Positions 8,536-44,296 of a stretch of 64,000 nucleotides of DNA are shown piece by piece. Position 1 is the first letter of the stretch, and each line of letters begins with the position of its first letter. The translations under genes were made by a program, and so were the position numbers. The notes under the pieces are model-generated. The model made no database searches. It was not told the DNA's origin and saw only the letters and a program-made list of their open reading frames with translations. This stretch comes from Sinorhizobium sp. 8-89 (GTDB taxonomy: Bacteria > Pseudomonadota > Alphaproteobacteria > Rhizobiales > Rhizobiaceae), in assembly GCF_030124325.1 (NCBI RefSeq), contig NZ_JASKLR010000017.1:7861-71860 (forward strand). The letters run 5' to 3'.

Positions 8536-9036
8536 ATGGACCAGGGGTTCTTTCTTCTGTTCGCTGCGGTGTCCGTGATCACGGCCCTGACTGTGGTTCT
8601 CGCGCGCAATCCGGTCCACAGCGCGCTGGCACTGATGGCCTGTTTCCTGCAGATCTCGGCGCTCTTCGTCCTGCTTGGGGCGCCGTTGCTCGCCGTCATC
8701 CAGATCTTCGTCTATGTCGGCGCGATCATGGTCCTGTTCCTGTTTGTGATCATGATGATCGACGTGCGCGAAGCGGTGCTGCAGAGGTTTTTGCCGGGCC
8801 GAAACCTGCCAGCTCTGGTGCTGCTCGTCCTGCTCGGCATCGAGATGCTCGTGCTGGTGCTCTGGAGCGACCGCTTTTCGGCGACAGAGCCCGCCGCCGC
8901 ACGCGGCGGCGATCAGATCAGAGCGCTCAGCACGACACTCTTCGCCGACTATCTCCTGCCGTTTGAAGTCGCCTCCGTCATCCTCCTGGCGGCGCTAGTT
9001 GGCGCCATCATGCTGGCACGGAAGGAGTCGGGGTGA
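8536..9036 (+). CDS. nuoJ: NADH-quinone oxidoreductase subunit J
   Basis: A 166-residue integral membrane subunit of complex I, located next to NuoK and NuoH in the membrane arm. Hydrophobic segments cover most of the chain, with the conserved [20 protein letters not shown] region near residues 55-75 that in family members forms the bulged TM3 helix linked to coupling. The start at 8536 has a GGAGGG site nine bases upstream. It is the first gene of a plus-strand operon running to 23057, with a stop-start overlap into nuoK. Confidence 0.95.
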
Positions 9037-9338
9037 TGGTTCCACTGTGGTGGTATGTTTTGCTCGGAGTGGTCCTTTTCGTGATCGGAGCGGCGGGCGT
9101 GCTGGTCAGGCGTAATATCCTGATCGTGCTGATGTCGCTGGAGCTGCTGCTCAACTCGGTCAACATCAATTTCATCGCTTTCGGGCGCTACTACGCCGAT
9201 TTTCGCGGGCAGATATTTGCGATCTTCGTCATCGCAACCACTGCAGCGGAGGTTGCCGTCGCCCTCGGCATCCTGGTCGCCCTCGTGAGGAACAAATCCA
9301 CCCTCAAGGTCGACGACGTGACCGTGATGAAAGGATAG
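9036..9338 (+). CDS. nuoK: NADH-quinone oxidoreductase subunit K
   Basis: A 100-residue, three-helix membrane subunit. The conserved Glu in [10 protein letters not shown] and the second one in [11 protein letters not shown] match the proton-path glutamates of NuoK (MrpC-like). I use the ATG at 9036, which overlaps the last base of the nuoJ stop and gives the usual MVPL N-terminus; a GTG one codon earlier is possible. An AGGAG site precedes it. The size is the same as in E. coli. Confidence 0.95.
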
Positions 9339-9342
9339 CGGC

Positions 9343-10806
9343 TTGGACCCGGTGATATCAATCCGGCCGCTGGCTGCCGTCACCGTCGCAGGTCTGGCGG
9401 CCCTTGCAGTTCTCCTTTTGAACAAGCGCGAGAAACTCCGGGATCTGGTCTCGCCACTGGCCGCGATCGTCATGTTCGCAATTGTCGCCTCGATGGCGCC
9501 GACGGTGCTCGCAGGCGGAACGGTCGAATTGCGCCTGTTCGAGTTTCTGCCGGGGATCGACTTCGCCTTCCGGGTCGATGCTCTCGGCATGGTGTTTGCC
9601 ACCGTCTCGTCGCTGCTGTGGATCGTGGCAGCGATCTATTCGATCGGTTACATGCGGCACCTGAACGAGCACGCGCAGACCCGATTCTTCGCCTGTTTCG
9701 CCACAAGCCTCGCGGCGGCCGTCGGCGGCGCTTTCTCCGCCAATCTGTTCACGCTGGTCATCTTCTACGAGGTCTTGAGCCTCGTGACCTACCCGCTCGT
9801 CTACCATCACGAGGACGAGGAGGGATGGGCCGGCAGCCGCAAATACCTCGTCTACCTGATGGGCGCATCGAAAAGCGTGCTACTTGCCGCGCTGGCGCTG
9901 ACCTACCATATCGCGGGTTCGCTCGACTTCGTGGCGGGGGGGCTGCTGGGAAAGGCCGATGCGTCGGCGCCGCTGCTGACGGTCGTCTATTTCTGCTATC
10001 TCTTCGGTTTCGCCAAGGCCGCGGTGATGCCGATGCACGCCTGGCTGCCTGCCGCGATGGTGGCGCCGACACCGGTCAGCGCGCTCCTGCATGCGGTCGC
10101 CGTGGTCAAGATGGGCGTGTTCTGCGTGCTGCGGGTGGTGTTCCATGTCTTCGGCGTGGGGCTTGTGGGCGGGTTGGGACTGGGCATCGCGACGGCCTAT
10201 CTCGTCTCGTTCACCATCCTGATGGCGTCTGTCTACGCGCTGACGCGCGACGACCTGAAGGCGCGGCTCGCCTATTCGACGGTGAGCCAGCTTTCATACG
10301 TGGTGCTGGGCGCGGTGCTCCTTTCGCCGGTCGCGATGGTCGGCGGAATCATCCACATCGCGGCGCATGCCTTTTCCAAGATCACTCTCTTTTTTTGCGC
10401 CGGGTCGATCTATTGCGCGTCCGGCAAGCGAAACATCAGCGACATGGCCGGTATCGGCCGGAGGCTCCCGTGGACCATGGGGGCGTTCTTCGTCGCCTCG
10501 CTCAGCATGATAGGGGTGCCGCCGACCGCAGGCTTCGTCAGTAAGTGGTATCTGACACTCGGCTCGGTTCAGGCGGGGGAGATCGCGTTCCTGATCGTGC
10601 TGCTGGCGAGTTCGGTCCTGAACGCCGCCTACTTCCTGCCGGTCAGCTACGTCGCCTTTTTCGGGGCGGAGGCGCCGGAGAGTCCGCCGACTATCCGCGA
10701 AATTCCGCTGGTGACGGTCCCTCTGGTCGCGACCGCCGTTCTGTCGGTCTTGATGGGCGTCTTCCCCGGCTATTTCCTCGCTTTGGCGGAAGGAGTGGTC
10801 AGATGA
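9343..10806 (+). CDS. Extra antiporter-like (MrpD/NuoN-type) complex I subunit
   Basis: A 487-residue proton-channel protein of the NuoL/M/N-MrpD superfamily, placed where nuoL would be expected. It keeps the ion-path residues: the TM5 glutamate (VIFYEVLSL), the TM7 lysine (FGFAKAAVMPMHAWLPAAM), a TM8 lysine (AVVKMGVF) and the TM12 lysine (HAFSKITLFF). It lacks the long C-terminal lateral helix of NuoL. It probably starts at TTG (9343), with AAGGA just upstream, four bases after nuoK. As NuoM, NuoN and a NuoL-like protein are also encoded, this is a fourth pumping-type subunit. Being an independent Mrp antiporter component is less likely given the gene order. Confidence 0.88.
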   Translation: MDPVISIRPLAAVTVAGLAALAVLLLNKREKLRDLVSPLAAIVMFAIVASMAPTVLAGGTVELRLFEFLPGIDFAFRVDALGMVFATVSSLLWIVAAIYSIGYMRHLNEHAQTRFFACFATSLAAAVGGAFSANLFTLVIFYEVLSLVTYPLVYHHEDEEGWAGSRKYLVYLMGASKSVLLAALALTYHIAGSLDFVAGGLLGKADASAPLLTVVYFCYLFGFAKAAVMPMHAWLPAAMVAPTPVSALLHAVAVVKMGVFCVLRVVFHVFGVGLVGGLGLGIATAYLVSFTILMASVYALTRDDLKARLAYSTVSQLSYVVLGAVLLSPVAMVGGIIHIAAHAFSKITLFFCAGSIYCASGKRNISDMAGIGRRLPWTMGAFFVASLSMIGVPPTAGFVSKWYLTLGSVQAGEIAFLIVLLASSVLNAAYFLPVSYVAFFGAEAPESPPTIREIPLVTVPLVATAVLSVLMGVFPGYFLALAEGVVR

Positions 10807-11057
10807 TCGAGCGCATCGTCGGTTTCTTTGGCGACGAGACCCATGCGACACGGCGGCGTCGGTTGTTCTATCTGGTGCTCGTCCTGATCGTCGTCGCCGA
10901 CTTTCTCGTCTCCCGCGAACATGCCGAATACCTGTGGGAGCGCCTGCCTGGCTGGTCGGCCGTCTACGGCTTCGGCTCCTGCGTGCTGCTGATTTTCGTT
11001 TCCAAGTTCCTCGGCCATCAGGGCGGACTCATGCGGCGCGAGGACTATTATGACTGA
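10803..11057 (+). CDS. Small membrane protein in the complex I operon
   Basis: An 84-residue protein that begins with an ATGA overlap on the preceding stop and overlaps the next start by eight bases, so it is translationally coupled on both sides. It has a basic N-terminus (TRRRRLFYL), a hydrophobic segment at about residues 21-35, a short loop (EHAEYLWERLPGW), a second hydrophobic segment at about 52-68 and a charged tail ending in DYYD. I do not recognise a named family. Its position between two antiporter-like genes suggests an accessory subunit of the extended membrane arm; this is inference. Confidence 0.8.
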   Translation: MIERIVGFFGDETHATRRRRLFYLVLVLIVVADFLVSREHAEYLWERLPGWSAVYGFGSCVLLIFVSKFLGHQGGLMRREDYYD

Positions 11058-12825
11058 CTTTGTCCATCCCGCCTTGCTGTTCATTCTTGGCGCCGTGCCG
11101 ATCCCCTTCCTGAAAGGGACGATCCGCAAGGCCTATCTGGTGCTGATCCCGGTGCTGGCGATCCTTGCTGTGCTCACCGTGCAACCAGGCAGCTACGGAG
11201 CGGCGCGGTTTATCGGGCAGGAAATCCTCGTTGCGAAGATCGACAGGCTGACGATCATCTTTGCCACCGTTTTCACCATCATGGCCCTGATCGGCATGGT
11301 CTATGCGCTGCACCTGACGCGCCCCGGCCAGCATGTGGCGGCATTCGTCTATGTCGGCAGTGCGCTCGGCGTGGTGTTTGCCGGCGACTACCTGACCCTT
11401 TACCTGTTCTGGGAGGGCATGGCGTTTGCCTCTGCCTATCTGGTTTTCGCCCAGGGAGGCGAGCGCGCGACCCGCGCTGCGTTCCGCTACCTCATGGTCC
11501 ATATCACCGGCGGCGTCGCCCTGTTGGGCGGCATCGTTCTCCACGGGCTCGCCACGGGCTCGCTACTCTTCGGTCCGATAGAAGGAGGCCCAATCGGGGG
11601 AGGAATGGGCGCCGGCGCCTATCTGATTCTCGCCGGGTTCCTGCTCAATGCAGCCGTGCCGCCGCTCAACGCCTGGCTCACCGACGCCTATCCGGAGGCG
11701 ACCGTCACCGGGGCGGTGTTCATGAGCGCCTTCACCACCAAGACCGCCGTCTATGTGCTGGCGCGAGCGTTTCCCGGCACCGAACTGCTGGTCTGGCTCG
11801 GCACCGCGATGGCGCTATACGGCGTCGTCTACGCGGTGCTCGAGAACGATAGCCGGCGGCTTCTCGCCTATCACATTGTCAGCCAGGTGGGCTACATGGT
11901 GGCCGGCGTCGGCATTGGTACCGAAATGGCGGTGAACGGAGCCACCAGTCATGCTTTCGCGCATATCCTCTACAAGGGGCTCCTGTTCATGGGGGCCGGC
12001 GCGGTGATCCACGTCACCGGGCGGCGTAAGCTCACCGAGCTCGGTGGGCTCTACAGAAAGATGCCGCTGACGGTGGCGCTCTACATGGTCGGCGCCTTTG
12101 CGATCTCGGCATTTCCGTTCTTCTCGGGCTTCGTCACCAAGTCGATGGTGGTTGCCGCTGCGGGGCAGGATCACCGCGCGCTGGTGTTGCTAGCGCTTAC
12201 GATGGCGTCGTCCGGGACGTTCCTGCACACGGGGCTCAAGCTCCCGTACTATATGTTCTTCGGCACGGACCGGAAGCTGGAGGCGCGGGAGCCGCCCGGC
12301 AACATGCTGGTTGCAATGGGCATGGCGGCGGCGCTCTGTATCGCTATCGGGGTTTTCCCTCAGCCACTTTACGCGCTTCTTCCCTATCCGGTCGACTTCG
12401 AACCCTATACCGGCGTTCATGTCACCGAGAGCCTCGGCGTGCTGATGTTCACCGCACTGGGATTCGTGCTGTTCCTCAGGGCGCTTGATCCGGAGAACAC
12501 GATCAGCATCGACACCGACTGGTTCTACCGCAAGGGCGCGCGAACCTTTATGTGGCTCGCCGAAAAACCGCTTGCACGCTACGAGAAGGCGGTCAGCAAC
12601 GTATCCGAGACCGCGGCGCTGCCCTTCCTGCACGGGACCGCGCGGACAGGACTGCGGGTCGATCTCAACGCAGTGGATGCCGTCGTGAATGGCGTCGCCC
12701 GCGCGATCCTCAATGGCGGCGGGACGTTGCGGCGCCTCCAGACCGGCGTCGTGACCCATTACGCGCTGGCGATGATCGCCGGTGTGATCGCGGCTACGGC
12801 CATTTTCGCCGTTGCGTGGCAATAG
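11050..12825 (+). CDS. NuoL-like antiporter subunit with C-terminal extension
   Basis: A 591-residue member of the NuoL/MrpD superfamily. The TM5 glutamate (LYLFWEGMAF), the TM8 lysine (AFTTKTAVYVL) and the TM12 lysine (AHILYKGLLFMGAG) are present. The TM7 lysine position reads Asn (GFLLNAAVPPLNAWL), and the following conserved His is Asn too. After about residue 470 comes an amphipathic C-terminal region (DWFYRKGARTFMWL, then KPLARYEKAV) ending in one more hydrophobic segment (HYALAMIAGVIAATAIFAV), like the lateral helix and anchor of NuoL. I therefore treat it as the NuoL counterpart; an MrpD-like label would also fit. GAGGA precedes the ATG by five bases. Confidence 0.88.
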   Translation: MTDFVHPALLFILGAVPIPFLKGTIRKAYLVLIPVLAILAVLTVQPGSYGAARFIGQEILVAKIDRLTIIFATVFTIMALIGMVYALHLTRPGQHVAAFVYVGSALGVVFAGDYLTLYLFWEGMAFASAYLVFAQGGERATRAAFRYLMVHITGGVALLGGIVLHGLATGSLLFGPIEGGPIGGGMGAGAYLILAGFLLNAAVPPLNAWLTDAYPEATVTGAVFMSAFTTKTAVYVLARAFPGTELLVWLGTAMALYGVVYAVLENDSRRLLAYHIVSQVGYMVAGVGIGTEMAVNGATSHAFAHILYKGLLFMGAGAVIHVTGRRKLTELGGLYRKMPLTVALYMVGAFAISAFPFFSGFVTKSMVVAAAGQDHRALVLLALTMASSGTFLHTGLKLPYYMFFGTDRKLEAREPPGNMLVAMGMAAALCIAIGVFPQPLYALLPYPVDFEPYTGVHVTESLGVLMFTALGFVLFLRALDPENTISIDTDWFYRKGARTFMWLAEKPLARYEKAVSNVSETAALPFLHGTARTGLRVDLNAVDAVVNGVARAILNGGGTLRRLQTGVVTHYALAMIAGVIAATAIFAVAWQ

Positions 12826-12833
12826 GGGGTGCG

Positions 12834-14309
12834 ATGACGGTCCCACTGCTCAGCCTCATCGTCTTCGTGCCGGTCGCCGGGGCGGCGCTGCTGATGTTTC
12901 TGCGCAACGACGATGCGGTCCGGTGGACGGCGCTTGGTTTCACCGTTCTCGATTTCGCTCTCTCGATCGCGATGCTGGCCGGCTTCGACACCACGACCCA
13001 TGAGATGCAGTTCACCGAGAGGCGCCCGTGGGTGCCCGCGCTCGGCATCACCTATGCGCTCGGCGTCGACGGGATCAGCGCGCTCTTCGTGTTCCTGACC
13101 GCGCTGTTGGGCTGGATTTGCGTGCTTGCCTCATGGGTCGCTATCGACCGCAAGGTGAAGGAGTTCATGATCAGTCTGCTCGCCATGCAGGCGCTGATGC
13201 TGGGGGTATTCTGCGCGCTCGACCTTTTCCTGTTCTACGTCTTCTGGGAGGCGATGCTGATCCCGATGTACCTGATCATCGGTGTCTGGGGCGGCGACGG
13301 TCGGGTCTATGCGGCGTTCAAATTCTTTCTTTACACGCTGGCGGGCAGCCTCCTGTTCCTGGTCGGCGTCATCGTGCTCTATTTCCAGGGCGGCGAAACC
13401 TTCGATATTCTTGCCCTGACAGCGAAGGATTTGCCGTTCCAGGTACAGTCTTGGCTGTTCTTCGCCTTCCTGATCGCTTTTGCGGTCAAGGTGCCGATGG
13501 TTCCGGTCCATACCTGGCTGCCGGACGCCCATGTGCAGGCGCCGACGGCGGGCAGCATCATTCTTGCCGGCGTGCTCCTGAAGATGGGCGCCTACGGGTT
13601 CCTGCGGTTCTCGCTGCCGATGCTGCCGGAGGCGTCGGTGTATTATTCTACGCTGATGCTGGCGCTTTCGGCGCTCGCGATCGTCTATGGCGGGTTTCTC
13701 GCGCTGGCGCAGGACGACCTGAAGAAACTGGTGGCCTATTCCAGCATCAGCCACATGGGCTTCGTCACCATGGGAATTTTCGCGCTGAACCTCCGCGGGC
13801 TCGAAGGCGGCATTCTGCAGATGTTCAATCACGGCGTCACGACCGGTGCTCTGTTCCTGTTCGTCGGCCTGATCTACGAACGGACCCATACCCGCAGCAT
13901 TGCCGACTATGGCGGGCTGATGAAGGTGGCGCCAGTCTATACCGCGTTCCTTGCGCTGTTCACGCTGTCGTCGATGGCGCTACCGGGAACGAATTCGTTC
14001 GTGGGCGAGTTGCTCGTGCTGTCGGGCGGGTTTGCGGCAAACCTCGCCGTCGGCACTGCCGCCGTGCTCGGTGCATTGCTGGGCGCGGCCTACCTGCTCG
14101 GCATGTACAGGAAGGTCGCGCTTGGTCCGGTCAGCGTCCGCGCCCAATTCAAGATACGCGACGTGAACGGTCGCGAGATCACGGCGATCCTGCCGCTCGC
14201 CGTCTTCGTGCTTTGGGTCGGGCTCTATCCAAAACCCTTTCTCGACGTCATGGACGCCTCGGTGAAACACCTGCTGACGCAGGTGCATGACAGGGAGAGC
14301 GGCCAATGA
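12834..14309 (+). CDS. nuoM: NADH-quinone oxidoreductase subunit M
   Basis: A 491-residue antiporter-like subunit with canonical NuoM motifs: VFWEAMLIPMYLIIG (TM5 Glu), FAVKVPMVPVHTWLPDAH (TM7 Lys), GVLLKMGAYGFLRF and YSSISHMGFV. The ATG at 12834 follows AGGGGG and lies eight bases after the previous stop; longer upstream readings overlap the preceding gene and are not NuoM-like. Together with the 487-residue protein, the 591-residue protein and NuoN it forms the distal membrane arm. Confidence 0.95.
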   Translation: MTVPLLSLIVFVPVAGAALLMFLRNDDAVRWTALGFTVLDFALSIAMLAGFDTTTHEMQFTERRPWVPALGITYALGVDGISALFVFLTALLGWICVLASWVAIDRKVKEFMISLLAMQALMLGVFCALDLFLFYVFWEAMLIPMYLIIGVWGGDGRVYAAFKFFLYTLAGSLLFLVGVIVLYFQGGETFDILALTAKDLPFQVQSWLFFAFLIAFAVKVPMVPVHTWLPDAHVQAPTAGSIILAGVLLKMGAYGFLRFSLPMLPEASVYYSTLMLALSALAIVYGGFLALAQDDLKKLVAYSSISHMGFVTMGIFALNLRGLEGGILQMFNHGVTTGALFLFVGLIYERTHTRSIADYGGLMKVAPVYTAFLALFTLSSMALPGTNSFVGELLVLSGGFAANLAVGTAAVLGALLGAAYLLGMYRKVALGPVSVRAQFKIRDVNGREITAILPLAVFVLWVGLYPKPFLDVMDASVKHLLTQVHDRESGQ

Positions 14310-15745
14310 CCGCCACCGAGCTTTTCCAGTCGGTTCTGGCAAGCCTGCCCGAGATCGTCGTGGTCACCGGGGCCTGCGTTCTGCTGATCGTGGGACAGCT
14401 TGTGCCGAAGGGGCGGGAACATTTCCTTGTCTGGGCTTCCGTCGCGGTGGTGCTGATTGCCGCCTTGCTCACACTCATGCTGGCGGGCGAAGTGCGGCCG
14501 GCCTACACCGGCATGTTCATCGCCGACCGCTTCGCGGTATTCTTCAAGTTCGTGTTCTACCTGGCGACCGTCCTCACATTCCTGCTTTCGCGAAAATATG
14601 CCGACATAGAAGGGATCGGGAGCAGCGAATACTATGTCCTGCTGCTCTTCGCACTTTCGGGCATGATGATCCTGGCCTCGGCGACCGATCTCCTGTCGAT
14701 CTATGTGGGCCTCGAACTGATGGTGCTCTGCACCTATGTGCTGACCGGCTTCCTGCGGGGAGAACGGCGTTCCAATGAAGCGGCGCTGAAATACGTCATC
14801 CTTGGCGCAGCCTCGACCGGGATCTTTCTTTACGGCGTTTCGCTGGTCTATGGCCTTACCGGCACCACACAACTGGACGCGATGGCCGCGGCGGTGAGCG
14901 GCGATCCGCTCGATCCGGGATTGTTGCTGGCGGTGGTCTTCATCGTTGCCGGGCTGGTCTTCAAGGTCGGCGCGGTGCCGTTTCATATGTGGGTGCCGGA
15001 CGTCTATGAAGGCGCGCCGACGACGATCACCGCCTTCATGTCGGTCGGCCCCAAGGCGGCGGGCTTTGCGGTGATCCTGCGCGTGTTCCTCAACCCTCTG
15101 GTCGCAGCCTCGGACGTTTGGGTCATCGTCGCTGTGATTGCGGTGGTGACCATGGCGCTCGGCAGTTTCGTGGCGCTGGTGCAGGATAATTTCAAGCGCG
15201 TCCTCGCCTATTCGAGCATCGCCCATGCCGGCTTCGCCATCCTCGGCGTGGTGGCCGGCGGTCAGGACGGCATCGCCAGCGTGATGTTCTATCTGCTGAT
15301 CTACGCTTTCATGAATCTCGGCATCTTCGGCACCGTCATCATGATGCGGAACGGCGATTTCTCGGGCGAGGTCATCGAAGACTACGCGGGTTTCGCCAAG
15401 TCGTATCCCGGCCTGGCATTTCTGATGCTGCTCTTTCTGTTCTCGCTGGCCGGCATTCCGCCGACGGCGGGGTTCTTCGCCAAGTTCTACGTGCTGGTAG
15501 CACTTGTCGAGCAAGGTTTTGTCATGCTGGCGGTGATTGCCGTGCTGCTGAGTGCCGTCGCCGCCTACTTTTACATCCGCATTGTCATGGTGATCTACAT
15601 GCGCGAGCCGGAGAGAACGTTCGAGCCGGCGTTGACGCCCCTGGTCCGCGCCACGCTCGCCTTCACCGCCGCCGGCACCATCGGCATCGGCCTGTTTCCG
15701 GCGTGGTTTCTGGGGCTTGCTCAACGTTCGGTTTTCGGCGGCTAA
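14306..15745 (+). CDS. nuoN: NADH-quinone oxidoreductase subunit N
   Basis: A 479-residue antiporter-like subunit with NuoN features: YVGLELMVLCTYVLTGF (TM5 Glu), VFKVGAVPFHMWVPDVYEG (TM7 Lys), SVGPKAAGFAVILRV and AYSSIAHAGFAILG. The start overlaps the nuoM stop (ATGA), indicating translational coupling. It closes the membrane-arm half of the operon; a repeat-bearing gap of 182 bp follows before nuoA. Confidence 0.95.
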   Translation: MTATELFQSVLASLPEIVVVTGACVLLIVGQLVPKGREHFLVWASVAVVLIAALLTLMLAGEVRPAYTGMFIADRFAVFFKFVFYLATVLTFLLSRKYADIEGIGSSEYYVLLLFALSGMMILASATDLLSIYVGLELMVLCTYVLTGFLRGERRSNEAALKYVILGAASTGIFLYGVSLVYGLTGTTQLDAMAAAVSGDPLDPGLLLAVVFIVAGLVFKVGAVPFHMWVPDVYEGAPTTITAFMSVGPKAAGFAVILRVFLNPLVAASDVWVIVAVIAVVTMALGSFVALVQDNFKRVLAYSSIAHAGFAILGVVAGGQDGIASVMFYLLIYAFMNLGIFGTVIMMRNGDFSGEVIEDYAGFAKSYPGLAFLMLLFLFSLAGIPPTAGFFAKFYVLVALVEQGFVMLAVIAVLLSAVAAYFYIRIVMVIYMREPERTFEPALTPLVRATLAFTAAGTIGIGLFPAWFLGLAQRSVFGG

Positions 15746-15855
15746 TCGATTGGATTTGCAATGATCCGCCCGGCGGAATAGACTGAGTGGTCAAGAAAGG
15801 ATTGCCCAAGTCGGCTTTCCGGGCGACCGCATCACCGGTCCCGAATTGGGCCGTC

Positions 15856-15908
15856 TCGGCGCGAGCAAGGCCCTTTGCGCGTCCAAGAAGACGCGCGGCG
15901 CTGTTGGT
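15856..15908. repeat. Dispersed rhizobial hairpin repeat, copy 3 (partial, reversed)
   Basis: The sequence CCTTTGCGCGTC...GACGCGCGGCGCTGTTGG is the first hairpin of the repeat in the opposite orientation. It lies in the nuoN-nuoA gap, inside the 14-gene plus-strand operon, where it splits the membrane-antiporter genes from the peripheral-arm genes. Confidence 0.65.
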
Positions 15909-15927
15909 GGGTGACGGGGACGGAATT

Positions 15928-16293
15928 ATGACCCCAATGGAATTCCTGCCGGTTCTTTTCATGGTCGCTGGAATTGTTCTGGTGGCGCTGGCGACGCTTT
16001 TTGTCTCTTCGCTGCTGCGCCCGTCCAATCCCTATCCCGCGAAGAACATGCCCTATGAATGCGGCATGGACCCGGCGGGCGAGGCCGCTGGCGGCCGCCT
16101 GAGGGTGCAGTTCTTCATTCTCGCGATCCTGCTGGTCGTCTTCGATGTGGAGGCGATGTTCCTCTTTCCCTGGGCTGTCGTCCTGAAAGAGATCGGGCTG
16201 GTAGGCTATGTCGAGATGTTCGTCTTCATGTTGCTGCTTATCGTGGGCTTCGCCTACGCCTGGCTGAAAGGGGCGCTGGAATGGGAGGCGTAA
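15928..16293 (+). CDS. nuoA: NADH-quinone oxidoreductase subunit A
   Basis: A 121-residue membrane subunit near the quinone cavity. It has the loop [16 protein letters not shown] with the conserved Cys, the motif [20 protein letters not shown] in TM2 and a final TM3. The ATG at 15928 has GGGGA seven bases upstream. Earlier starts would add a basic repeat-derived leader and are rejected. It overlaps nuoB by 13 bases. Confidence 0.94.
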
Positions 16294-16784
16294 ACAACGC
16301 GATCCGCGACAGCGTTCTGTTCACCACGGCCGACAGCATCATCAACTGGGGCCGAAGATCGGCGCTGTGGCCGGAGACCTTCGGCATTGCCTGCTGCGCC
16401 ATCGAAATGATCTCCGCGGGGTGCGCTCGCTACGATCTCGACCGCTTCGGCGTGGTGTTCCGGCCGTCGCCGCGTCAATCGGACGTGATGATCATCGCCG
16501 GCACCATAACCCGGAAGTTCGCGCCCGTGGTGCGCCGGCTCTACGACCAGATGCCGGAGCCGCGCTGGGTCATCGCCATGGGCACCTGCGCCATCTCGGG
16601 TGGGGTCTACAACACCTATGCCGTGGTGCAGGGCGCGGAAACCTTCGTGCCGGTGGACGTGCATGTGCCCGGCTGTCCGCCGCGGCCCGAGGCGCTCATG
16701 CACGGCTTCCTTCTGCTTCAGGAGAAGATCAAGAAGTCCAGGGCGCTTGCCGGGACGCCGCTGGAGAGGATCGCCCTGCCATGA
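16281..16784 (+). CDS. nuoB: NADH-quinone oxidoreductase subunit B
   Basis: A 167-residue peripheral subunit that binds the terminal [4Fe-4S] cluster N2 and passes electrons to quinone at the NuoD/NuoH interface. The cluster ligands are visible: the tandem cysteines in GIACCAIEM, the Cys in GTCAISGG and the Cys in [10 protein letters not shown]. The start ATG is inside the end of nuoA, after AAAGGGG. The length fits the family. Confidence 0.95.
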
Positions 16785-17317
16785 GCGCGGAGACCTCTCT
16801 CATCCGCACCTTGATCACGGAACGTTTTGGAGGGGCAATCGAAGAGCTCGGCTTCTCGCATGGGGTTCACGCTTTCGCCTCTCCGCCCGACAAGATCGTC
16901 GAGCTTTGCCGATACCTGAAGGAACACCCGGCGCTGCGGTTCGATTTCCTGTCCGACATTTGCGGGGTCGATCACCACCCCGAGGCACCGCGATATGAGG
17001 CGGTGTACCACCTCTATTCGCTGCCGAACAAATGGCGCGTTCGGATCAAGTGCCGCCTCGGCGACCCGCCGCGGGTGCCCTCGGTGACGGGGGTCTGGCG
17101 CACCGCCAACTGGCACGAGCGCGAGGCGTGGGACATGTACGGGATCAGGTTCGAAGGCCATCCCGACCTGCGCCGGATCTACATGTGGGAAGGGTTCGAG
17201 GGCTTCCCGCAGCGCAAGGATTTTCCGCTCCGGGGCTACAAGGACGAGCTGAACCCGTTCGGCGCCGAAGGCACACCGCCGACCCAGCCGGACCTTGCCA
17301 CCAAGGACATCCCCTAG
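16781..17317 (+). CDS. nuoC: NADH-quinone oxidoreductase subunit C
   Basis: A 178-residue peripheral subunit of the 30-kDa type. Motifs include [12 protein letters not shown], the [13 protein letters not shown] core and the C-terminal RKDFPLRGY. It starts with an ATGA overlap on nuoB. NuoC and NuoD are separate genes here, unlike the fused NuoCD of E. coli. A RIME-type palindrome starts at its stop codon. Confidence 0.95.
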
Positions 17318-17361
17318 AGCGGGATGAGGAAAAGTGTGTGCGGTTTTCCGCCCGCATCCCG
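17317..17361. repeat. RIME-type palindromic element
   Basis: The arms GCGGGATGAGGAAAA and TTTTCCGCCCGCATCCCG form a long imperfect palindrome of the kind known as Rhizobium intergenic mosaic elements. It fills about half of the 89-bp gap between nuoC and nuoD, so the operon mRNA would fold into a strong hairpin here. It has no T-run, so it is more likely a processing or stability element than a terminator. Confidence 0.75.
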
Positions 17362-17406
17362 TATCAACTGGTTTAACGGAGGCCGCTCGACACCGGGAAA
17401 TGTGAG

Positions 17407-18621
17407 ATGACCGAAGTCACTGAGCTCACGAGGCCGCAAGGCGAGGCAATCGACACCAAGGAGGTGCTTCTCAATCTCGGCCCGCAACATCCCAGCACGC
17501 ATGGAGTGTTGCGGCTCGTCCTCGAGCTGGACGGCGAGTATGTCTCCCGCGTCGACCCGCATATCGGTTACCTGCACCGCGGCACCGAAAAACTGGCCGA
17601 GAGCTTCACCTACACCCAGATATTCCCGCTCACCGACCGGCTCGACTATGTCTGCCCGCCCTCGAACAACCTGGCCTTCGCGCTGGCAGTCGAGAAGCTC
17701 CTGGGTATCGAAGCGCCGATCCGCGCGCAGTATATACGCGTGCTCATGGCGGAACTCGCGCGGATCTCCGGCCATCTCCTGATCACCGGCGCCCTGCCGA
17801 TGGATCTCGGCGCCATGACCGCGCTGCTTTATGCCATGCGCGAGCGCGAAATGATCATGGACCTGTTGGAGATGGTCAGCGGGGCGAGGATGCACACCTC
17901 GTTCTGCCGGGTTGGCGGTGTGCGCGAGGACCTTCCGGACGGCTTCTTCTCGAAGATCAGGGAGTTCTGCGACATCTTCCCGAACCGGATCCGCGATTAC
18001 GAGCGGCTGCTCGAGAACAACCGGGTGTTCCTGAAGCGCACCCAAGGGATCGGGGTGATCTCCGCCGAGGACGGCATTGATCTTGGACTGAGCGGCCCGA
18101 ACCTGCGCGCCTCAGGCGTCGACTGGGATATCCGGCGCGACGAGCCCTACGAGATCTACGATCGGCTCGACTTCAAGGTCATTACCCGCGACGAGGGCGA
18201 TTGTTATGCGCGCTGGCAATGCCGGGTCGAGGAGATGCGCGAAAGCGTCCGGATCATCGAGCAATGTCTCGACCAGATGCCCGAGGGGCCGTTCCAGATC
18301 GACATGCCGACCATCGCCTTCCCGGTGGACAAGGAGCGGGTGCACTGCTCGATGGAGGCGCTGATCCAGCATTTCGACCTGTCGGCCTATGGCTTCAATG
18401 TGCCGAAGGGCGAAGTCTATTCGGCGATCGAGGCGCCAAAGGGCGAACTCGGCTTCTACATCATCAGCGACGGGTCGCCGAAACCTTTTCGCATGAAGGT
18501 GCGGGCACCTTCGTTCGTCAACCTTCAGGCACTCTTCGGGGTCACCAACGCCCACTACCTGGCGGACATGATCGCCGTGCTCGGCAGTCTCGATCCTGTC
18601 ATGGCGGAGGTGGACAAGTAG
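17407..18621 (+). CDS. nuoD: NADH-quinone oxidoreductase subunit D
   Basis: A 404-residue 49-kDa-type subunit forming the quinone site with NuoB. Diagnostic motifs: LNLGPQHPSTHGVLRLVLEL, DPHIGYLHRGTEKLAE (with the conserved His), GGVREDLPDGF and SDGSPKPFRMKVRAPSF near the C-terminus. Length is typical. It follows the RIME palindrome; an ATG at 17407 opens the reading frame. Confidence 0.95.
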   Translation: MTEVTELTRPQGEAIDTKEVLLNLGPQHPSTHGVLRLVLELDGEYVSRVDPHIGYLHRGTEKLAESFTYTQIFPLTDRLDYVCPPSNNLAFALAVEKLLGIEAPIRAQYIRVLMAELARISGHLLITGALPMDLGAMTALLYAMREREMIMDLLEMVSGARMHTSFCRVGGVREDLPDGFFSKIREFCDIFPNRIRDYERLLENNRVFLKRTQGIGVISAEDGIDLGLSGPNLRASGVDWDIRRDEPYEIYDRLDFKVITRDEGDCYARWQCRVEEMRESVRIIEQCLDQMPEGPFQIDMPTIAFPVDKERVHCSMEALIQHFDLSAYGFNVPKGEVYSAIEAPKGELGFYIISDGSPKPFRMKVRAPSFVNLQALFGVTNAHYLADMIAVLGSLDPVMAEVDK

Positions 18622-18638
18622 CAGGAGATTTGAACGCG

Positions 18639-19151
18639 ATGACCATGCGCGAAGAGATCGAACAGGCGGCGGCGCGGTATCCCGACCAGCGCTCGGCGAT
18701 CATGCCCGCGCTCCTGATCGCGCAGAAGGAACATGGCCATCTGCCCGGCCCGGTGCTGGAAGAGGTCGCCGACATCCTCGGCGTCGAGCGGATCTGGGTC
18801 TACGAGCTGGCGACCTTCTACACCCTCTTCCATACCGAGCCGGTGGGCATGTTCCATCTGCAGCTCTGCGACAATGTCTCCTGCATGCTGTGCGGCTCCG
18901 ATAACCTGCTGGGGCATCTGGAGGATGTCCTCGGGATCAAGAAGGACGGCACGACCACGGACGGGCTGTTCACGCTCTCGACCGTCGAATGCCTCGGCGC
19001 TTGCGAGATGGCCCCGGTGATGCAGGTCGGCGACGATTATCACGGCGACCTTGACATTGCCCGGGTCGACGCGCTGCTGGACAGGCTGCGCGCGACGGTG
19101 CGGCAAGCGACCGGCCCCGATCTCACCGCCGCAGGAACACCGGGAGAATAG
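18639..19151 (+). CDS. nuoE: NADH-quinone oxidoreductase subunit E
   Basis: A 170-residue 24-kDa-type subunit of the NADH-dehydrogenase module carrying [2Fe-2S] cluster N1a. The ligands appear as CDNVSC (C-x4-C) and CLGAC (C-x3-C). The thioredoxin-like fold motif VYELATFYTLFHTEP is present. AGGAG lies 11 bases before the chosen ATG (18639); an ATG at 18645 is an alternative. Seventeen bases separate it from nuoD and four from nuoF. Confidence 0.94.
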   Translation: MTMREEIEQAAARYPDQRSAIMPALLIAQKEHGHLPGPVLEEVADILGVERIWVYELATFYTLFHTEPVGMFHLQLCDNVSCMLCGSDNLLGHLEDVLGIKKDGTTTDGLFTLSTVECLGACEMAPVMQVGDDYHGDLDIARVDALLDRLRATVRQATGPDLTAAGTPGE

Positions 19152-19155
19152 CGCC

Positions 19156-20421
19156 ATGTTCGAGCCGGTTCTTCTCAAGAATGTCGACATGCCGGACGGT
19201 CATTTGCTGTCGACCTATGAAGCCGGCGGCGGCTACAAGGCGCTGGCGAAGGTGCTTACCGACTACACGCCCGACGAGGTCGTGGAGCTCGTCAAGCAAT
19301 CCAACCTGCGCGGTCGCGGCGGTGCCGGATTTCCGACCGGCATGAAATGGAGTTTCGTGCCGAAAGGGGCCGACAAGCCGAAATACCTGTGCTGCAACGC
19401 CGACGAAGGGGAGCCTGGCACATTCAAGGACCGGATCATCATGGAGCGCGACCCGCACCAGCTCATCGAGGGGCTGGCGGTCAGCGCCTACGCGATCGGG
19501 GCGGAAACCGCCTATGTCTACGTCCGCGGAGAATATGTGGCTGCTATCCGTCGCCTGGAGCAGGCGATCGTCGAGGCTCATGAAAAGGGCTATCTGGGAA
19601 GGAGCATTCTTGGATCGGATTTCAACTTTACCGTCCACATCCACTGCGGCGCCGGCGCCTATATCTGCGGCGAGGAGACCGCGATGCTCGAGTCGCTCGA
19701 GGGCAAGCGGGCGCAGCCGCGATTGAAACCGCCGTTTCCGGCCGTGGCCGGGCTCTACGCCAGCCCTACTGTGATCAACAATGTCGAGACGCTCGCCTGC
19801 GTGCCGCACATCGTGACACGCGGGGCGGCCTGGTTTCGCGGCATCGGCCCGGACAAGAGCCCCGGTCCGAAGCTCTATTGCGTGAGCGGGCAGGTGCGCA
19901 AACCCGGCCTCTACGAGTTGCCGATGGGCATACCGCTCAAGGAACTGGTTGAGAACCACGCCGGCGGTCCGCTGCCGGGACGCAGGATCAAGGCGGTGAT
20001 CCCGGGCGGGGTTTCGGCGCCGGTCATCCCGGAGCCCGGGCTGGAAGTGGGGATGGATTTCGACTCGCTGGCCGCCGCCGGATCGATGCTCGGCTCGGCC
20101 GGCGTGATCGTGGTCGACGACTCCACCTGCATGGTCAAGGTCGCCACCCGGATCATCGAGTTCTTCCATCACGAGTCCTGCGGCAAGTGCACGCCGTGTC
20201 GGGAGGGACTGAACTGGGTCGTGAAGGTCCTGCGCCGGATCGAGGCCGGGGAGGGCGAGCCGGGCGATCTGGAACAGCTGGAGATGCTCTGCAAAGGCAT
20301 TTTCGGTAACACGTTCTGCGCCTTGGGCGACGGCGCGGCCATGGGCTTGCGGGCCGCCCTTAAGCATTTCCGCGACGAATTCGTCACCCATATCGAGGAG
20401 CGGAGGTGCCCGTTCCACTGA
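19156..20421 (+). CDS. nuoF: NADH-quinone oxidoreductase subunit F
   Basis: A 421-residue 51-kDa-type subunit that binds NADH, FMN and [4Fe-4S] cluster N3. Visible sites: the NADH/FMN glycine-rich loop GRGGAGFPTGMKW, CNADEGEPGTFKDR, and the N3 cysteines in ESCGKCTPCREG plus the later Cys in GNTFCALGDG. The ATG at 19156 is close behind nuoE; longer readings merely run through nuoE. It is a cytoplasmic peripheral-arm protein and the entry point for electrons from NADH. Confidence 0.95.
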   Translation: MFEPVLLKNVDMPDGHLLSTYEAGGGYKALAKVLTDYTPDEVVELVKQSNLRGRGGAGFPTGMKWSFVPKGADKPKYLCCNADEGEPGTFKDRIIMERDPHQLIEGLAVSAYAIGAETAYVYVRGEYVAAIRRLEQAIVEAHEKGYLGRSILGSDFNFTVHIHCGAGAYICGEETAMLESLEGKRAQPRLKPPFPAVAGLYASPTVINNVETLACVPHIVTRGAAWFRGIGPDKSPGPKLYCVSGQVRKPGLYELPMGIPLKELVENHAGGPLPGRRIKAVIPGGVSAPVIPEPGLEVGMDFDSLAAAGSMLGSAGVIVVDDSTCMVKVATRIIEFFHHESCGKCTPCREGLNWVVKVLRRIEAGEGEPGDLEQLEMLCKGIFGNTFCALGDGAAMGLRAALKHFRDEFVTHIEERRCPFH

Positions 20422-20441
20422 AGGATGGGCTGCGAGGAACT

Positions 20442-23057
20442 ATGGTTAGCATTACCATCGACGGACAGACGCTGGAAGTTGAGGCTGGCTCCACAGTGCT
20501 GCAGGCTGCCGAACGCTTGGGCATCGACATCCCGACCTTCTGCTATCTGAAGCGGTTGCCGGCGCTGGCCTCGTGCCGCATGTGCCTGGTCGAGATCGAG
20601 GGGCTGCGGCGATTGCAGCCGTCCTGTGCCACCGTGGTCACCGACGGAATGGTGGTGCGGACGAACACGCCTCAGATCGACGAAACGCGTTCTTCCATGC
20701 TCGACATGCTGCTCGCCAACCATCCCCTCGACTGCCCGATCTGCGACAAGGGCGGCGAGTGCGAGCTTCAGGACATGGTGATGGCATACGGGCCACGCAA
20801 AAGCGAGTTCCACGATCCCAAACGAGTGTTCCACTCGAAGGACATCCGTCTGAGCCCGGTCATCATCATGAACGTCAACCGCTGCATCCAGTGCCAGCGC
20901 TGTGTGCGGATGTGTGAGGAAGTCGTCGGCGCGGTCGCTCTGGGCACCGTCGAAAAAGGCATGGATACCGCCGTCACCGGCTTCGAGGGCAGCCTCGCGA
21001 GTTGCGACCAGTGCGGCAATTGCGTCGAGGTCTGCCCGGTCGGCGCGCTGATGAGCTTCCCCTATCGCTACAAGGCGCGACCCTGGGATCTGGCCGAGAC
21101 CGACACGGTCTGCCCGCATTGCGGCACCGGATGCCAGCTGACCGTCGGCGCGCGCAAGGGCGAGTTCATGCGGGTCCGCTCGAAGCAGGAGCACGGGGTC
21201 AACCGCGAAACGCTCTGCGCGCGTGGGCGCTTCGGCCTCGACTTCATTGAGAGCCGGGACCGGATCAAGCGGCCGATGATCCGCCGTGACGGCGCCCTCG
21301 TTCCGGTTTCCTGGGACGAGGCTGGGGATTATCTGCGCCGGCGACTGTCGGCCGTCGAGGACAAGGTTGCCGGCGGACTGGCCTCGCCGCGCCTTTCGAA
21401 CGAGGTGCTCTACCAATTCCAGAAGCTGATGCGGACGGTGTTCCGGACGAACAACATCGACTGTTCGACGCGCTGGTCCACGCCCTTCGATGCGCTCGGG
21501 CCGTTGGTTACCGGTTTCCATACCCGCGCGCCGCTGGACGAGGTCATCGGCAACGACTGCGTGCTGGTCGTCGGCGGCAACGTGACCGAGGAGAACCCGG
21601 TCACGGAATACCTGCTGCGCGACGCCGCGCGCCGGCGGCAGACCGGATTGCTCATGCTCTCGGCGCGGCCATCCCGTCTGGAAGCCGATGCCAGGGCGGT
21701 GGTTCGCGTCCCTCCTGGCGGAGAAGCGGCGAGCCTTGCAGCTGTGGTCGCCGCGCTCATGACAACGGCTGATCAGAGCTTGCCGGGCGACGTTCTTGCG
21801 GACATCGGTGCGGTAGTCGGCGGTCAGGCGGCGATCACCGGCCGTGACGGACCGGATCGTCTGGCCACGGCGCTTAAGGAAGGCCGCAGCGTCACCCTGC
21901 TTGTCAGCGTCGACCTCCTGAGATCACCTGAAGCGCGTGCCACACTGCAACAGCTCAACAATCTGCTCCAGGTTCTTCGCCTGCTCGGCAAGGACGTGGC
22001 GATGCAGTTCCTTTTCGACCGTGCCAACCAGATGGGTGCCTGGGACATGGGAGTCCTGCCGGCGGCTCTGCCGGGGCTGCGGGCGGTATCCGATGACGCG
22101 GCGCGCACAGCGCTCGCCCGGAGCTGGGGCGCCGAAGTCCCGTCTGAACCGGGCGCGGATCTCGACGCAATGCTGGAGCTCTGCGTCGGCGGCCGGATGG
22201 GCGCGCTCTACATCGCCGGAACCGACCCCCTAGTCAGCTATCCCGACAGGGATTTCGTGACACGGGCGCTTGGCGCCGCCGACCTCGTGATGGTGCAGGA
22301 CAGCTTTCTCACGGAAACGGCGGGTCTGGCCGACGTCGTGCTGCCCGCGGCGGGTTACGGCGAGGAATCCGGCACGTTTACCAACAACGAGGGCCGGACG
22401 CAGAAGATCAGCAAATTCCGCGAGCCCGCCTTCGACGCGCGGGGCAATCTGGCGGTTTTCGACTTCGTCGCGGCGCTCCGCAATCAAGCGCTGCGGCCAT
22501 CGACGCAGGGCGAGATTTTCGACGAGATCGCCTGGCTTGTTCCGGCCTATCAGGGTTTGACGCCGGATGGGCTTGGCGCAGACGGCGCCTTCACAAAAGC
22601 GGCCCCGACGCCACCGGCTCATGAGTTCTTCGCGGCACCACCTACCGCGAAAGCAACCAACCAACTCGTGCTGGTCACCGGCAACGGCCTGTTTCACAAC
22701 GGATATCTTTCCGAACGCTCGGAGATCCTGAATACGATCGCGGATGACCCCTATGTCGAGATGAGCGCGCAGGATGCCGCTGAGCTTGGCCTTTCCGATC
22801 AGGATCAGGTACTCGTGCAGTCCGCTCATGGCGAACTGACGGCGACGCTCAAGGTCAACCGGCGCTTTCCGAGGGGCCTCGTGTTTGTTCCCGAAAACTA
22901 CAGGGACCTGCGCCTCAACAGCCTGATGCGGCGGGGAGAATATCCATGTCCGGTGGAGGTTCACGAAGCAAGGGCATCTTCGGGATCATCCCTCTCACCC
23001 GATACGGCGGCGAGCGCTGAGGATGTCGACCAAGGCATGGCCGGTGGCTTACCCTGA
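20442..23057 (+). CDS. nuoG: NADH-quinone oxidoreductase subunit G, long form with molybdopterin-type domain
   Basis: An 871-residue 75-kDa-type subunit. The N-terminal ferredoxin domain has C-x10-C-x2-C ligands (FCYLKRLPALASCRMC), then the HPLDCPICDKGGECELQ motif (N5), then NRCIQCQRCVRMC and SCDQCGNCVEVCP (N4-type). A molybdopterin-oxidoreductase domain follows, whose VCPHCGTGCQLTV plus the later Cys in ETLCARG supply the extra N7-type cluster. A C-terminal molydopterin dinucleotide-binding-like domain ends near EYPCPVEVHE. It is far longer than the roughly 690-residue form usual for alphaproteobacterial housekeeping complex I. I choose ATG 20442 (GAGGA upstream); a GTG at 20406 would overlap nuoF. 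Confidence 0.93.
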   Translation: MVSITIDGQTLEVEAGSTVLQAAERLGIDIPTFCYLKRLPALASCRMCLVEIEGLRRLQPSCATVVTDGMVVRTNTPQIDETRSSMLDMLLANHPLDCPICDKGGECELQDMVMAYGPRKSEFHDPKRVFHSKDIRLSPVIIMNVNRCIQCQRCVRMCEEVVGAVALGTVEKGMDTAVTGFEGSLASCDQCGNCVEVCPVGALMSFPYRYKARPWDLAETDTVCPHCGTGCQLTVGARKGEFMRVRSKQEHGVNRETLCARGRFGLDFIESRDRIKRPMIRRDGALVPVSWDEAGDYLRRRLSAVEDKVAGGLASPRLSNEVLYQFQKLMRTVFRTNNIDCSTRWSTPFDALGPLVTGFHTRAPLDEVIGNDCVLVVGGNVTEENPVTEYLLRDAARRRQTGLLMLSARPSRLEADARAVVRVPPGGEAASLAAVVAALMTTADQSLPGDVLADIGAVVGGQAAITGRDGPDRLATALKEGRSVTLLVSVDLLRSPEARATLQQLNNLLQVLRLLGKDVAMQFLFDRANQMGAWDMGVLPAALPGLRAVSDDAARTALARSWGAEVPSEPGADLDAMLELCVGGRMGALYIAGTDPLVSYPDRDFVTRALGAADLVMVQDSFLTETAGLADVVLPAAGYGEESGTFTNNEGRTQKISKFREPAFDARGNLAVFDFVAALRNQALRPSTQGEIFDEIAWLVPAYQGLTPDGLGADGAFTKAAPTPPAHEFFAAPPTAKATNQLVLVTGNGLFHNGYLSERSEILNTIADDPYVEMSAQDAAELGLSDQDQVLVQSAHGELTATLKVNRRFPRGLVFVPENYRDLRLNSLMRRGEYPCPVEVHEARASSGSSLSPDTAASAEDVDQGMAGGLP

Positions 23058-23630: not shown

Positions 23631-24197
23631 TCACGTTCGCCGGATATTCCGCCACCAGTTGTAACCCTGTGGCTCGTTCGTCTCCACAAGCACATCCTTC
23701 TTCGTGTTCAGGCGCGCAGCGACCACGCCGCCGCCGGTCGCCGCCTTGCCTGGTTTGGTGAGCAGGTTGTCGCGCCCGATCACCAGATCTCGCGAGGAAA
23801 AACTTGAGAATTCATACTGTTGACCAAGCGCGATCGCATCCGCCGGACAGGCGTCTTCGCATAGCCCGCAGAACAGGCAGCGGGCCGTGTCGATTTCGAA
23901 CTTGGCCGGGCGCCGGTTGCCCTTCTCGTCCTCGTAGGGGACGACTTCGATGCAGTAGCAGGGACAGATCCGCGCGCAGAGCTCGCAGGCCACGCACTTG
24001 ATCTCGCCCTCTTCGTCGCGCTTCAGGAAGTGATGCCCGCGATAACGCGGATAAGGCAGCCATTTCTCCTTGTCCGGATACTGCATGGTCACGGATCTGG
24101 AGAACATATAGCCGAAAGTCAGCGCTAGGCCGTTCGCCAGATCAGCAAAAAACGCCCAACCGATCCATGTCCCAATTGTGTTCCGTGCGCGCGACAT
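23631..24197 (-). CDS. nuoI: NADH-quinone oxidoreductase subunit I
   Basis: A 188-residue TYKY-type subunit with two [4Fe-4S] clusters (N6a and N6b). The ligand sets are CVACELCARICP and CLFCGLCEDACP, each C-x2-C-x2-C-x3-C-P. An amphipathic N-terminus (residues 10-35) would sit on the membrane next to NuoH. The gene is on the opposite strand from nuoJ-G, in an operon nuoH, nuoI, CBS protein. The tail after the second cluster (about 70 residues) is longer than usual. Confidence 0.95.
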   Translation of the reverse strand: MSRARNTIGTWIGWAFFADLANGLALTFGYMFSRSVTMQYPDKEKWLPYPRYRGHHFLKRDEEGEIKCVACELCARICPCYCIEVVPYEDEKGNRRPAKFEIDTARCLFCGLCEDACPADAIALGQQYEFSSFSSRDLVIGRDNLLTKPGKAATGGGVVAARLNTKKDVLVETNEPQGYNWWRNIRRT

Positions 24198-24279: not shown

Positions 24280-25266
24280 CTAAGAGAAAGCAATACCAGT
24301 TATAATTATGTTCGCCATCGACAAAGGAAGCAAGACTTTCCATCCGATCGCCATCAGCTGGTCGTAGCGATAGCGGGGGAGGGTGAAGCGAAGCCACATG
24401 AACAGATAGACGAAGAACGCCACCTTGAGCACGAACCAGACGAGCGGCGGCAATGGCAGTAGCACGCCGTTCCAGCCGCCGAAGAACAGGATCACGACCA
24501 GGACCGACACCAGGAGCATGATGGCGTATTCGCTTGCCATGAAGAACGCGAAGCGGATGCCACTATATTCGGTATGGAATCCGGCCCCGAGATCGCCTTC
24601 CGCTTCCGCCAGATCGAAGGGAATGCGCTGGGCTTCGGCCAGCCCGGCGACGAAGAACACGAAGAAACCGACCGGTTGATAGACGACGTTCCAGACATCG
24701 GCCTGGGCTCGCACGATGTCCAGAAGGCTCATGGACTGCGCCATCATTACCACGCCGATGACCGCGAACCCCATCGGGATCTCGTAGCTGATCATCTGCG
24801 CGCAGGTCCTGAGGCTGCCCAGGACCGCGTATTTGCTGTTCGCGGCCCAGCCGCCGAAGATGATGCCGTAGACCTCCAGGCCGATCACGGCGAAGACGAA
24901 AAGGAGCGCCACGTTCAGGTTGGAGACGTAGAGCGTGATCTCGTTGCCGAGGACCGAGACGGTTTCGCCGAAGGGGACCGCGACGAACACCACGAAGGGC
25001 GGGGCGAGCGCCAGGATTGGAGCCAGTTTGAACAGGAAGCGGTCGGCATCGGCCGGGATGTGGTCCTCTTTGGTCAAGAGCTTGATGCCATCCGCCACCG
25101 GCTGCAGCAGCCCGTGCCATCCGACGCGCATCGGTCCCATCCGCTGCTGGATGTGCCCGGCGATCTTGCGTTCCACCCATGTTAGCGGCAAGGGCAGCAG
25201 CAGCAGGATCGCAATCAGCAACGCCACTTTGAAGATGATCAGGCCAAGAGCGACGATAAGTTCCAT
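24280..25266 (-). CDS. nuoH: NADH-quinone oxidoreductase subunit H
   Basis: A 328-residue, multi-helix membrane subunit that forms the quinone tunnel and joins the peripheral arm to the pumps. Diagnostic motifs: RMGPMRVGWHGLLQPVADG, IKLLTKEDHIP, the acidic loop FDLAEAEGDLGAGFHTEYSG, and RFTLPRYRYDQLM near the end. It is the first gene of the minus-strand operon with nuoI and the CBS gene, so this half of the complex has a separate promoter. Without it the complex would be incomplete, so co-regulation with the plus-strand operon is expected. Confidence 0.95.
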   Translation of the reverse strand: MELIVALGLIIFKVALLIAILLLLPLPLTWVERKIAGHIQQRMGPMRVGWHGLLQPVADGIKLLTKEDHIPADADRFLFKLAPILALAPPFVVFVAVPFGETVSVLGNEITLYVSNLNVALLFVFAVIGLEVYGIIFGGWAANSKYAVLGSLRTCAQMISYEIPMGFAVIGVVMMAQSMSLLDIVRAQADVWNVVYQPVGFFVFFVAGLAEAQRIPFDLAEAEGDLGAGFHTEYSGIRFAFFMASEYAIMLLVSVLVVILFFGGWNGVLLPLPPLVWFVLKVAFFVYLFMWLRFTLPRYRYDQLMAIGWKVLLPLSMANIIITGIAFS

Positions 25267-39920: not shown

Positions 39921-39954
39921 TGCCTCCATCATCAGAGCCATGGAGGGTGAAACC

Positions 39955-42084: not shown

Positions 42085-42100
42085 GCTGGAGGTTATGACT

Positions 42101-44293: not shown

Positions 44294-44296
44294 GCC

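Follow-up and report, generated by a model that had tools for sequence, protein, structure and literature searches.

A complex I gene cluster of the rhizobial "green" type in Sinorhizobium sp. 8-89, with two MrpD-type proteins in the place of NuoL

What kind of complex I is encoded by a gene cluster that holds four large antiporter-like proteins between nuoK and nuoA, and what could the additional protein contribute? The question is raised by a stretch of 64,000 nucleotides from Sinorhizobium sp. 8-89 (contig NZ_JASKLR010000017.1, positions 7,861 to 71,860 of the forward strand; hereafter the window), whose preliminary description read the locus as four antiporter-like subunits instead of three. 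The cluster is the already described rhizobial "green complex I" and is not new. We conclude with high confidence that it encodes this enzyme, in which NuoL is replaced by a block of two MrpD-type proteins, called D1 and D2 below, and a small protein between them (orf84), the block likely coming from the end of an Mrp-type operon and D2 probably capping the membrane arm.

Scans with Pfam and NCBIfam profiles revealed a complete complex I gene set within the window, comprising NuoA-K, NuoM and NuoN, and no NuoL in the cluster. The core subunits are accompanied by a subunit in the L position, while nuoI is recognized by its 4Fe-4S domain and position only. Genes from nuoJ to nuoG occupy the forward strand (8536-23057) in the order nuoJ, nuoK, D1, orf84, D2, nuoM, nuoN and nuoA to nuoG, and nuoI and nuoH follow directly on the reverse strand:

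8536..9036, + strand: nuoJ (PF00499; NCBIfam NuoJ models, below their cut-offs)
9033..9338, + strand: nuoK (PF00420; NF004320 above cut-off)
9343..10806, + strand: D1, MrpD-type antiporter-like subunit, 487 aa, TTG start (NF006236, 837 bits)
10803..11057, + strand: orf84, 84 aa, two hydrophobic stretches, C-terminal DYYD end (no family match)
11050..12825, + strand: D2, MrpD-type subunit, 591 aa, whose C-terminal lateral helix and last membrane helix resemble those of NuoL (NF009310, 782 bits)
12834..14309, + strand: nuoM, 491 aa (TIGR01972, 648 bits)
14306..15745, + strand: nuoN, 479 aa (TIGR01770, 514 bits)
15928..16293, + strand: nuoA (PF00507)
16290..16784, + strand: nuoB (PF01058, matched on the longer frame 16059-16784)
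16781..17317, + strand: nuoC (PF00329, matched on the longer frame 16367-17317)
17407..18621, + strand: nuoD (PF00346)
18201..19151, + strand: nuoE (PF01257; match from residue 153, true start inside the open frame)
19051..20421, + strand: nuoF (PF01512, PF10589; true start probably inside the open frame)
20406..23057, + strand: nuoG (PF00384, PF13510, PF10588)
23631..24197, - strand: nuoI (4Fe-4S domains only; named from position and length)
24280..25266, - strand: nuoH (PF00146, E 9.5e-120)

All four large proteins match PF00361, and their reading frames have the lengths and places given in the preliminary description. Its wording of four instead of three holds for the count of antiporter-like subunits; by NCBIfam, however, the arrangement is better described as a replacement of NuoL by two MrpD-type proteins and a small one. 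D1 exceeds the cut-off (663 bits) of the family "putative monovalent cation/H+ antiporter subunit D", and D2 that of "Na(+)/H(+) antiporter subunit D" (564 bits). With the NuoL model TIGR01974 (cut-off 407.5), D1 scores 197, D2 147 and NuoN 111, NuoM is not among the best 25 matches listed, and the canonical NuoL from another locus of the same genome scores 928. A further NuoL model, NF005141, aligns with residues 63-588 of D2 below its cut-off. Since D1 and D2 are far below the NuoL cut-off and are of MrpD type by NCBIfam, the cluster is without NuoL.

For comparison, a D2-type protein above the family cut-off was found in 87 of 385 alphaproteobacterial genomes, and 48 stretches with flanks were hand-picked from this search (40 with D2 above the family cut-off and eight below). 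By their neighbours they comprise 40 Mrp-linked loci, defined by at least one MrpA- or MrpE-type match (six on an MrpA-type match alone), four nuo-linked loci (L134, L135, L180, L181) and four in neither class (L141, L155, L176, L178). The four nuo-linked ones were joined with 80 named loci, all 80 nuo-linked, to give 84. Locus counts therefore describe a chosen set and not a frequency, and the named nuo-linked relatives, with D2 85-99% identical to that of the window, are not independent.

The order J-K-D1-orf84-D2-M-N is kept in 82 of the 84 nuo-linked loci, which excludes a chance arrangement; the other two end at a contig edge, one before D1 and one after D2. Canonical NuoL is the best match at no place in any of these loci. 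From nuoJ to nuoN, adjacent genes overlap by 4 to 8 bases or are 4 to 8 bases apart, a spacing that fits a single operon. FixK/FNR-type boxes (TTGA-N6-TCAA) were searched in the 400 bases upstream of nuoJ and occur in one of 83 loci and not in the window, giving no support for that regulator. In two alphaproteobacterial genomes (L180, L181), nuoH and nuoI lie directly before nuoJ on the same strand, while in the window they are reversed and placed after nuoG; the former is possibly the older arrangement.

The lateral helix of D2 was measured as the span between Tyr in the D-x-x-Tyr motif and the LQTG-type motif that precedes the last helix. It counts 69 residues in the window protein and likewise in all 83 complete nuo-linked copies (one more is interrupted by a contig end). 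Among the 40 Mrp-linked copies it is 50 in 34, 49 in four, 44 in one (L162) and 58 in one (L164), and in the four loci of neither class it is 50 in three and 52 in one. Canonical NuoL has a span of 45 in 28 of 30 proteins in which the anchors were found by pattern, and the remaining two also show 45 by eye. The lateral helix of nuo-linked D2 is consequently 24 residues longer than that of NuoL and mostly 19-20 residues longer than that of Mrp-linked D2. At 1.5 angstrom per residue, the extra length amounts to roughly 29-36 angstrom, and a length of about 29-36 angstrom corresponds to the width of one antiporter subunit. The longer helix would match one extra subunit to span, and fits a lateral helix that grows with the number of subunits. 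For the five-subunit form, PMC9040806 reports a lateral helix 26 residues longer than the rhizobial one.

Four residues attributed to proton pumping were located by alignment and are named as in the complex I literature: TM5 Glu, TM7 Lys, either Lys or His on TM8, and either Lys or Glu on TM12. All four are kept in D1 (83/83 nuo-linked copies, as TM5 Glu, TM7 Lys, TM8 Lys and TM12 Lys), in NuoM (83/83) and in NuoN (82/82), and canonical NuoL keeps its own set in 30 of 30 proteins. In D2, the TM7 Lys position is occupied by Asn in the window (Asn200) and in 83 of 83 nuo-linked copies, which equally keep TM5 Glu122, TM8 Lys231 and TM12 Lys364. Mrp-linked D2 proteins have Lys at this position in 29, Asn in nine, Arg in one and Ser in one of the 40 loci, and those of neither class have Asn in two, Lys in one and Leu in one. 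The loss of TM7 Lys is probably older than the move into the nuo cluster, because Asn is also present in Mrp-linked L139 and in another, separate clade of Mrp-linked D2.

The gain of "more protons per NADH" proposed in the preliminary description is therefore not shown: with Asn at TM7 of D2, a fifth proton per NADH cannot be inferred from the number of genes. It could nevertheless be that D2 is a full fourth pump, in which His151 or a water chain replaces TM7 Lys and five protons are moved per NADH; the enzyme would then require a larger redox drop or a lower proton-motive force. The three kept residues of D2 speak for this, and so does the pairing at position 151, predicted on TM6: His151 is present in all 20 Asn-type D2 inspected (nine Mrp-linked and 11 sampled nuo-linked), while the 29 Lys-type proteins have Gln in 26 and His in one, so that His151 is a possible substitute for TM7 Lys. 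Furthermore, for forms that have additional pumping subunits, 5 to 6 protons are proposed in PMC9040806. However, the Glu-Lys ion pair of Paracoccus ND4 is essential for catalysis (PMC9802314), and the MrpA-K223A and MrpD-K219A variants retain the Mrp complex but lose antiport (PMC5703873). Asn-type and Lys-type D2 also divide along the tree, and the His/Asn pairing may reflect shared descent. On balance, we regard a full fourth pump as doubtful.

Located between D1 and D2, orf84 has no match in NCBIfam, Pfam or PDB sequences. By tblastn it is found in all 84 nuo-linked loci and in seven of the 40 Mrp-linked ones. Judged by position, 81 of 83 nuo-linked loci contain an open reading frame (ORF) with two hydrophobic stretches between D1 and D2; of the remaining two, one shows a single stretch and one none. 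Such an ORF is likewise present in 35 of 40 Mrp-linked loci, with a single stretch in four others and none in the last. These counts derive from simple hydropathy, and the chosen ORF may be wrong in some loci, e.g. L165. A DYYD-like C-terminal motif recurs in many of the small-protein sequences printed. The small protein is probably a subunit.

Outside nuo clusters, the block of D1, small protein and D2 is found at the end of Mrp-type operons. A third antiporter-like match besides D1 and D2 is present in 39 of 40 Mrp-linked loci, and in the fortieth (L171) a third place is matched by the MrpA query in tblastn. The operon of L140, annotated in detail, reads mrpE, F, G, an MrpA C-terminal-like part, B, C, D, D1, small protein and D2. 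As an observation in its own right, this operon (L140:2718-10355) is of Mrp type with apparently three antiporter-like subunits (D, D1, D2) and the small protein, and 39 other loci give similar tblastn matches; a literature search for such three-subunit alphaproteobacterial Mrp operons found no paper.

In a tree of 40 rows rooted on NuoL and MrpA, which includes the window and six of the 84 nuo-linked loci, nuo-linked D2 proteins group as a single clade (99/100), with Mrp-linked L139 as its sister (95/99). The tree has two more D2 clades, both Mrp-linked: the first carries Asn (99/100), the second Lys (100/98). Proteins were trimmed to the first 480 or 560 residues, leaving the lateral helix mostly outside the alignment, and 14 of the 44 Mrp-linked or unclassed loci (L138, L142, L148, L152, L155, L159, L166, L173-L179) were omitted for long branches, near-duplication or poor classing. 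An earlier tree of 63 rows, with very long branches and an incomplete careful search, also joined nuo-linked D2 with L139. Derivation of D1-orf84-D2 from the end of an Mrp-type operon is, judging from these comparisons, most likely. Mrp-type matches between nuoJ and nuoG are absent from all 84 nuo-linked loci for queries Mrp A, D and E, and the scanned neighbours in the window operon are nuo genes with no Mrp-type domain, none of them a small Mrp partner (B, C, E, F, G). Mrp-type matches outside the nuoJ-nuoG range were seen in two nuo-linked loci, L066 and L120, in the latter as A-, D- and E-type matches upstream of nuoJ.

The host genome carries nifH and nodC above the family cut-offs; besides the full nifH on contig C17, two partial nifH-like matches lie on contig C56 (316-754). 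PF00361 is matched at 11 places in the genome, four in the cluster, three in a canonical nuo locus and four in two Mrp loci, each of which contributes one A and one D subunit and has A, D and E subunits above an NCBIfam cut-off. Contig C1 contains canonical NuoL, NuoM and NuoN above cut-offs and a second NuoH, and by these genes the cluster is the second complex I operon of a genome that also has a standard one. NuoM and NuoN of the cluster are 51% and 41% identical, respectively, to their canonical counterparts in the same genome. Of the named genomes found, Sinorhizobium psoraleae is the closest, with a D2 99% identical to that of the window. With no limit on identity, D2 is matched in 386 plasmid records; in 109 of these a single place spans 80% or more of the protein, and the best matches include Sinorhizobium and Rhizobium megaplasmids (among the 25 of 386 matches listed).

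These neighbourhoods also bear on whether the block belongs to complex I. It might instead form a separate Na+/H+ antiporter inside the nuo operon, leaving a complex I with only NuoM and NuoN, as could be argued from its position in Mrp-type operons in 40 of the 48 hand-picked loci of other alphaproteobacterial genomes and from the Mrp-type matches upstream of nuoJ in L120. The window neighbours are, however, nuo genes, the range from nuoJ to nuoG is free of Mrp-type matches throughout the nuo-linked loci, the Mrp loci of the genome own their A, D and E subunits, and D2 of nuo clusters has a longer lateral helix than D2 of Mrp operons; we consider this explanation highly improbable. The preliminary description had named membership of D1 or D2 in a stand-alone Mrp clade, with mrp partners elsewhere, as evidence that would count against a complex I of four antiporter-like subunits. 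What was found is mixed: the families of D1 and D2 are otherwise largely Mrp-linked, but both Mrp loci of the genome own their large subunits, a finding from searches that did not extend to small mrp genes lying elsewhere. The presence of a canonical NuoL on contig C1 allows yet another reading, that the cluster pairs with NuoL from elsewhere into an arm of five antiporter-like subunits or into mixed complexes. By the reasoning on helix length, its 45-residue span is short for a five-unit arm, and the low identity of NuoM and NuoN between the two clusters is also at odds with such pairing, which we judge most improbable.

Placement of all four antiporter-like subunits in one complex is supported only indirectly, via the fixed gene order and the longer lateral helix, and several points weigh against this interpretation of the cluster. 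The case is made at the level of genes and their predicted products. Between nuoN and nuoA there are 182 bases, and a single transcript of the whole cluster would have to be assumed. The difference in helix length represents one evolutionary change inside one clade, that of nuo-linked D2, and two of the 40 Mrp-linked D2 depart from the span of 49-50 (44 and 58). An AlphaFold model of D2, built from the window protein and 29 close relatives, has a mean pLDDT of 50.5 and is too poor to use. Finally, the deepest fork of the 40-row tree lacks resolution and the outgroup branches are long, and for this reason the direction from Mrp to nuo is likely but not proven.

In the favoured interpretation as green complex I, electrons from NADH would pass to quinone as in any complex I, judging from the subunit set, and the coupling signal would travel outward through NuoN, NuoM and D1 to D2. 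D2 would cap the arm and strap it with its elongated lateral helix, a role assigned by analogy with NuoL. With a full set of pumping residues in three of the four antiporter-like subunits, D2 being the exception, the usual four protons per NADH would be expected, and five only where a different residue of D2, e.g. His151, steps in. The enzyme would likely serve respiration in nodules. The literature ties the enzyme to symbiosis: PMC7415380, citing the 2016 paper on it, reports upregulation of green complex I in the symbiosis of Rhizobium and Sinorhizobium. That low oxygen is the cause would be our conjecture.

As a tentative scenario, the enzyme could be a chimera: the three-gene end of an Mrp exchanger with three antiporter-like subunits, including the unnamed small subunit, would have been put on a nuo cluster in exchange for NuoL, and its helix would later have grown by roughly the width of one subunit so as to strap an arm of four units. 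As the outermost unit would be without the ion-pair Lys, the result would be a longer arm without a conventional fourth pump. Such an enzyme, if the scenario is true, would help to separate the model of one proton per antiporter subunit from that in which all protons leave at the distal subunit. The site and manner of proton ejection by complex I are still debated (PMC9802314), and a naturally occurring complex I that has one more subunit, a strap lengthened to match and a distal end without TM7 Lys would offer a ready test object. The hosts are nitrogen-fixing bacteria, in which the energy yield per NADH should matter.

Elsewhere in the window, proteins of hydantoinase A and B type precede one of acetone carboxylase gamma type (39940-44794), an arrangement that resembles an acetone carboxylase-like operon. 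An IclR-type regulator and a gluconolactonase (SMP-30) domain share one open frame on the reverse strand (26716-28518), as a fusion or an overlong frame.

A literature search on complex I with a fourth proton pumping subunit, by that wording, gave no match, nor did one combining second nuo copies with bacteroid, microaerobic or meliloti, and the available passages of PMC12361115 and PMC7677001 contain nothing on four-subunit forms beyond a citation. The surmise in the preliminary description that the arrangement is published was nevertheless borne out by green complex I (PMC9040806), which is ascribed to Degli Esposti & Martinez-Romero 2016 (via PMC9040806, PMC7415380 and PMC5419562). According to PMC7415380, two complex I operons occur in about 70 Alphaproteobacteria, and PMC5419562 counts the green form as one of the ancient operons for complex I that typify anaerobic metabolism. 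Four antiporter-like subunits per complex are credited to Chadwick 2018 in PMC7419157.

Several known systems share parts of this organization. The Mrp-type operon with three antiporter-like subunits in alphaproteobacteria, known in detail from L140, has the same terminal block of D1, small protein and D2, but instead of nuo genes it carries the mrp genes listed above, and its D2 helix is mostly 19-20 residues shorter. The 2M complex I of Nitrospira (Chadwick et al. 2018, via PMC9040806) likewise has four antiporter-like subunits and a lengthened lateral helix; it keeps NuoL and has an additional NuoM, whereas the window cluster has one NuoM and no NuoL, and is thus not of the 2M type. Complex_I_3 of Candidatus Manganitrophaceae (PMC9040806) shares two MrpD-like subunits, reported as closest to the rhizobial ones, but has five antiporter-like subunits, two of them NuoM, and in the published comparison its MrpD2 lateral helix exceeds the rhizobial one by 26 residues. 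Green complex I itself is described, in the papers that cite it, with the features found here: two MrpD-like subunits replacing NuoL, in a second operon beside the standard one, in Rhizobium and Sinorhizobium. A peculiar gene order is also ascribed to the published form; that of the window cluster runs J-K-D1-orf84-D2-M-N-A to G, with I and H reversed. The small protein, the longer helix and the TM7 Asn may already be contained in the 2016 paper, and as compared through the citing papers, no difference was found between green complex I and the window cluster.

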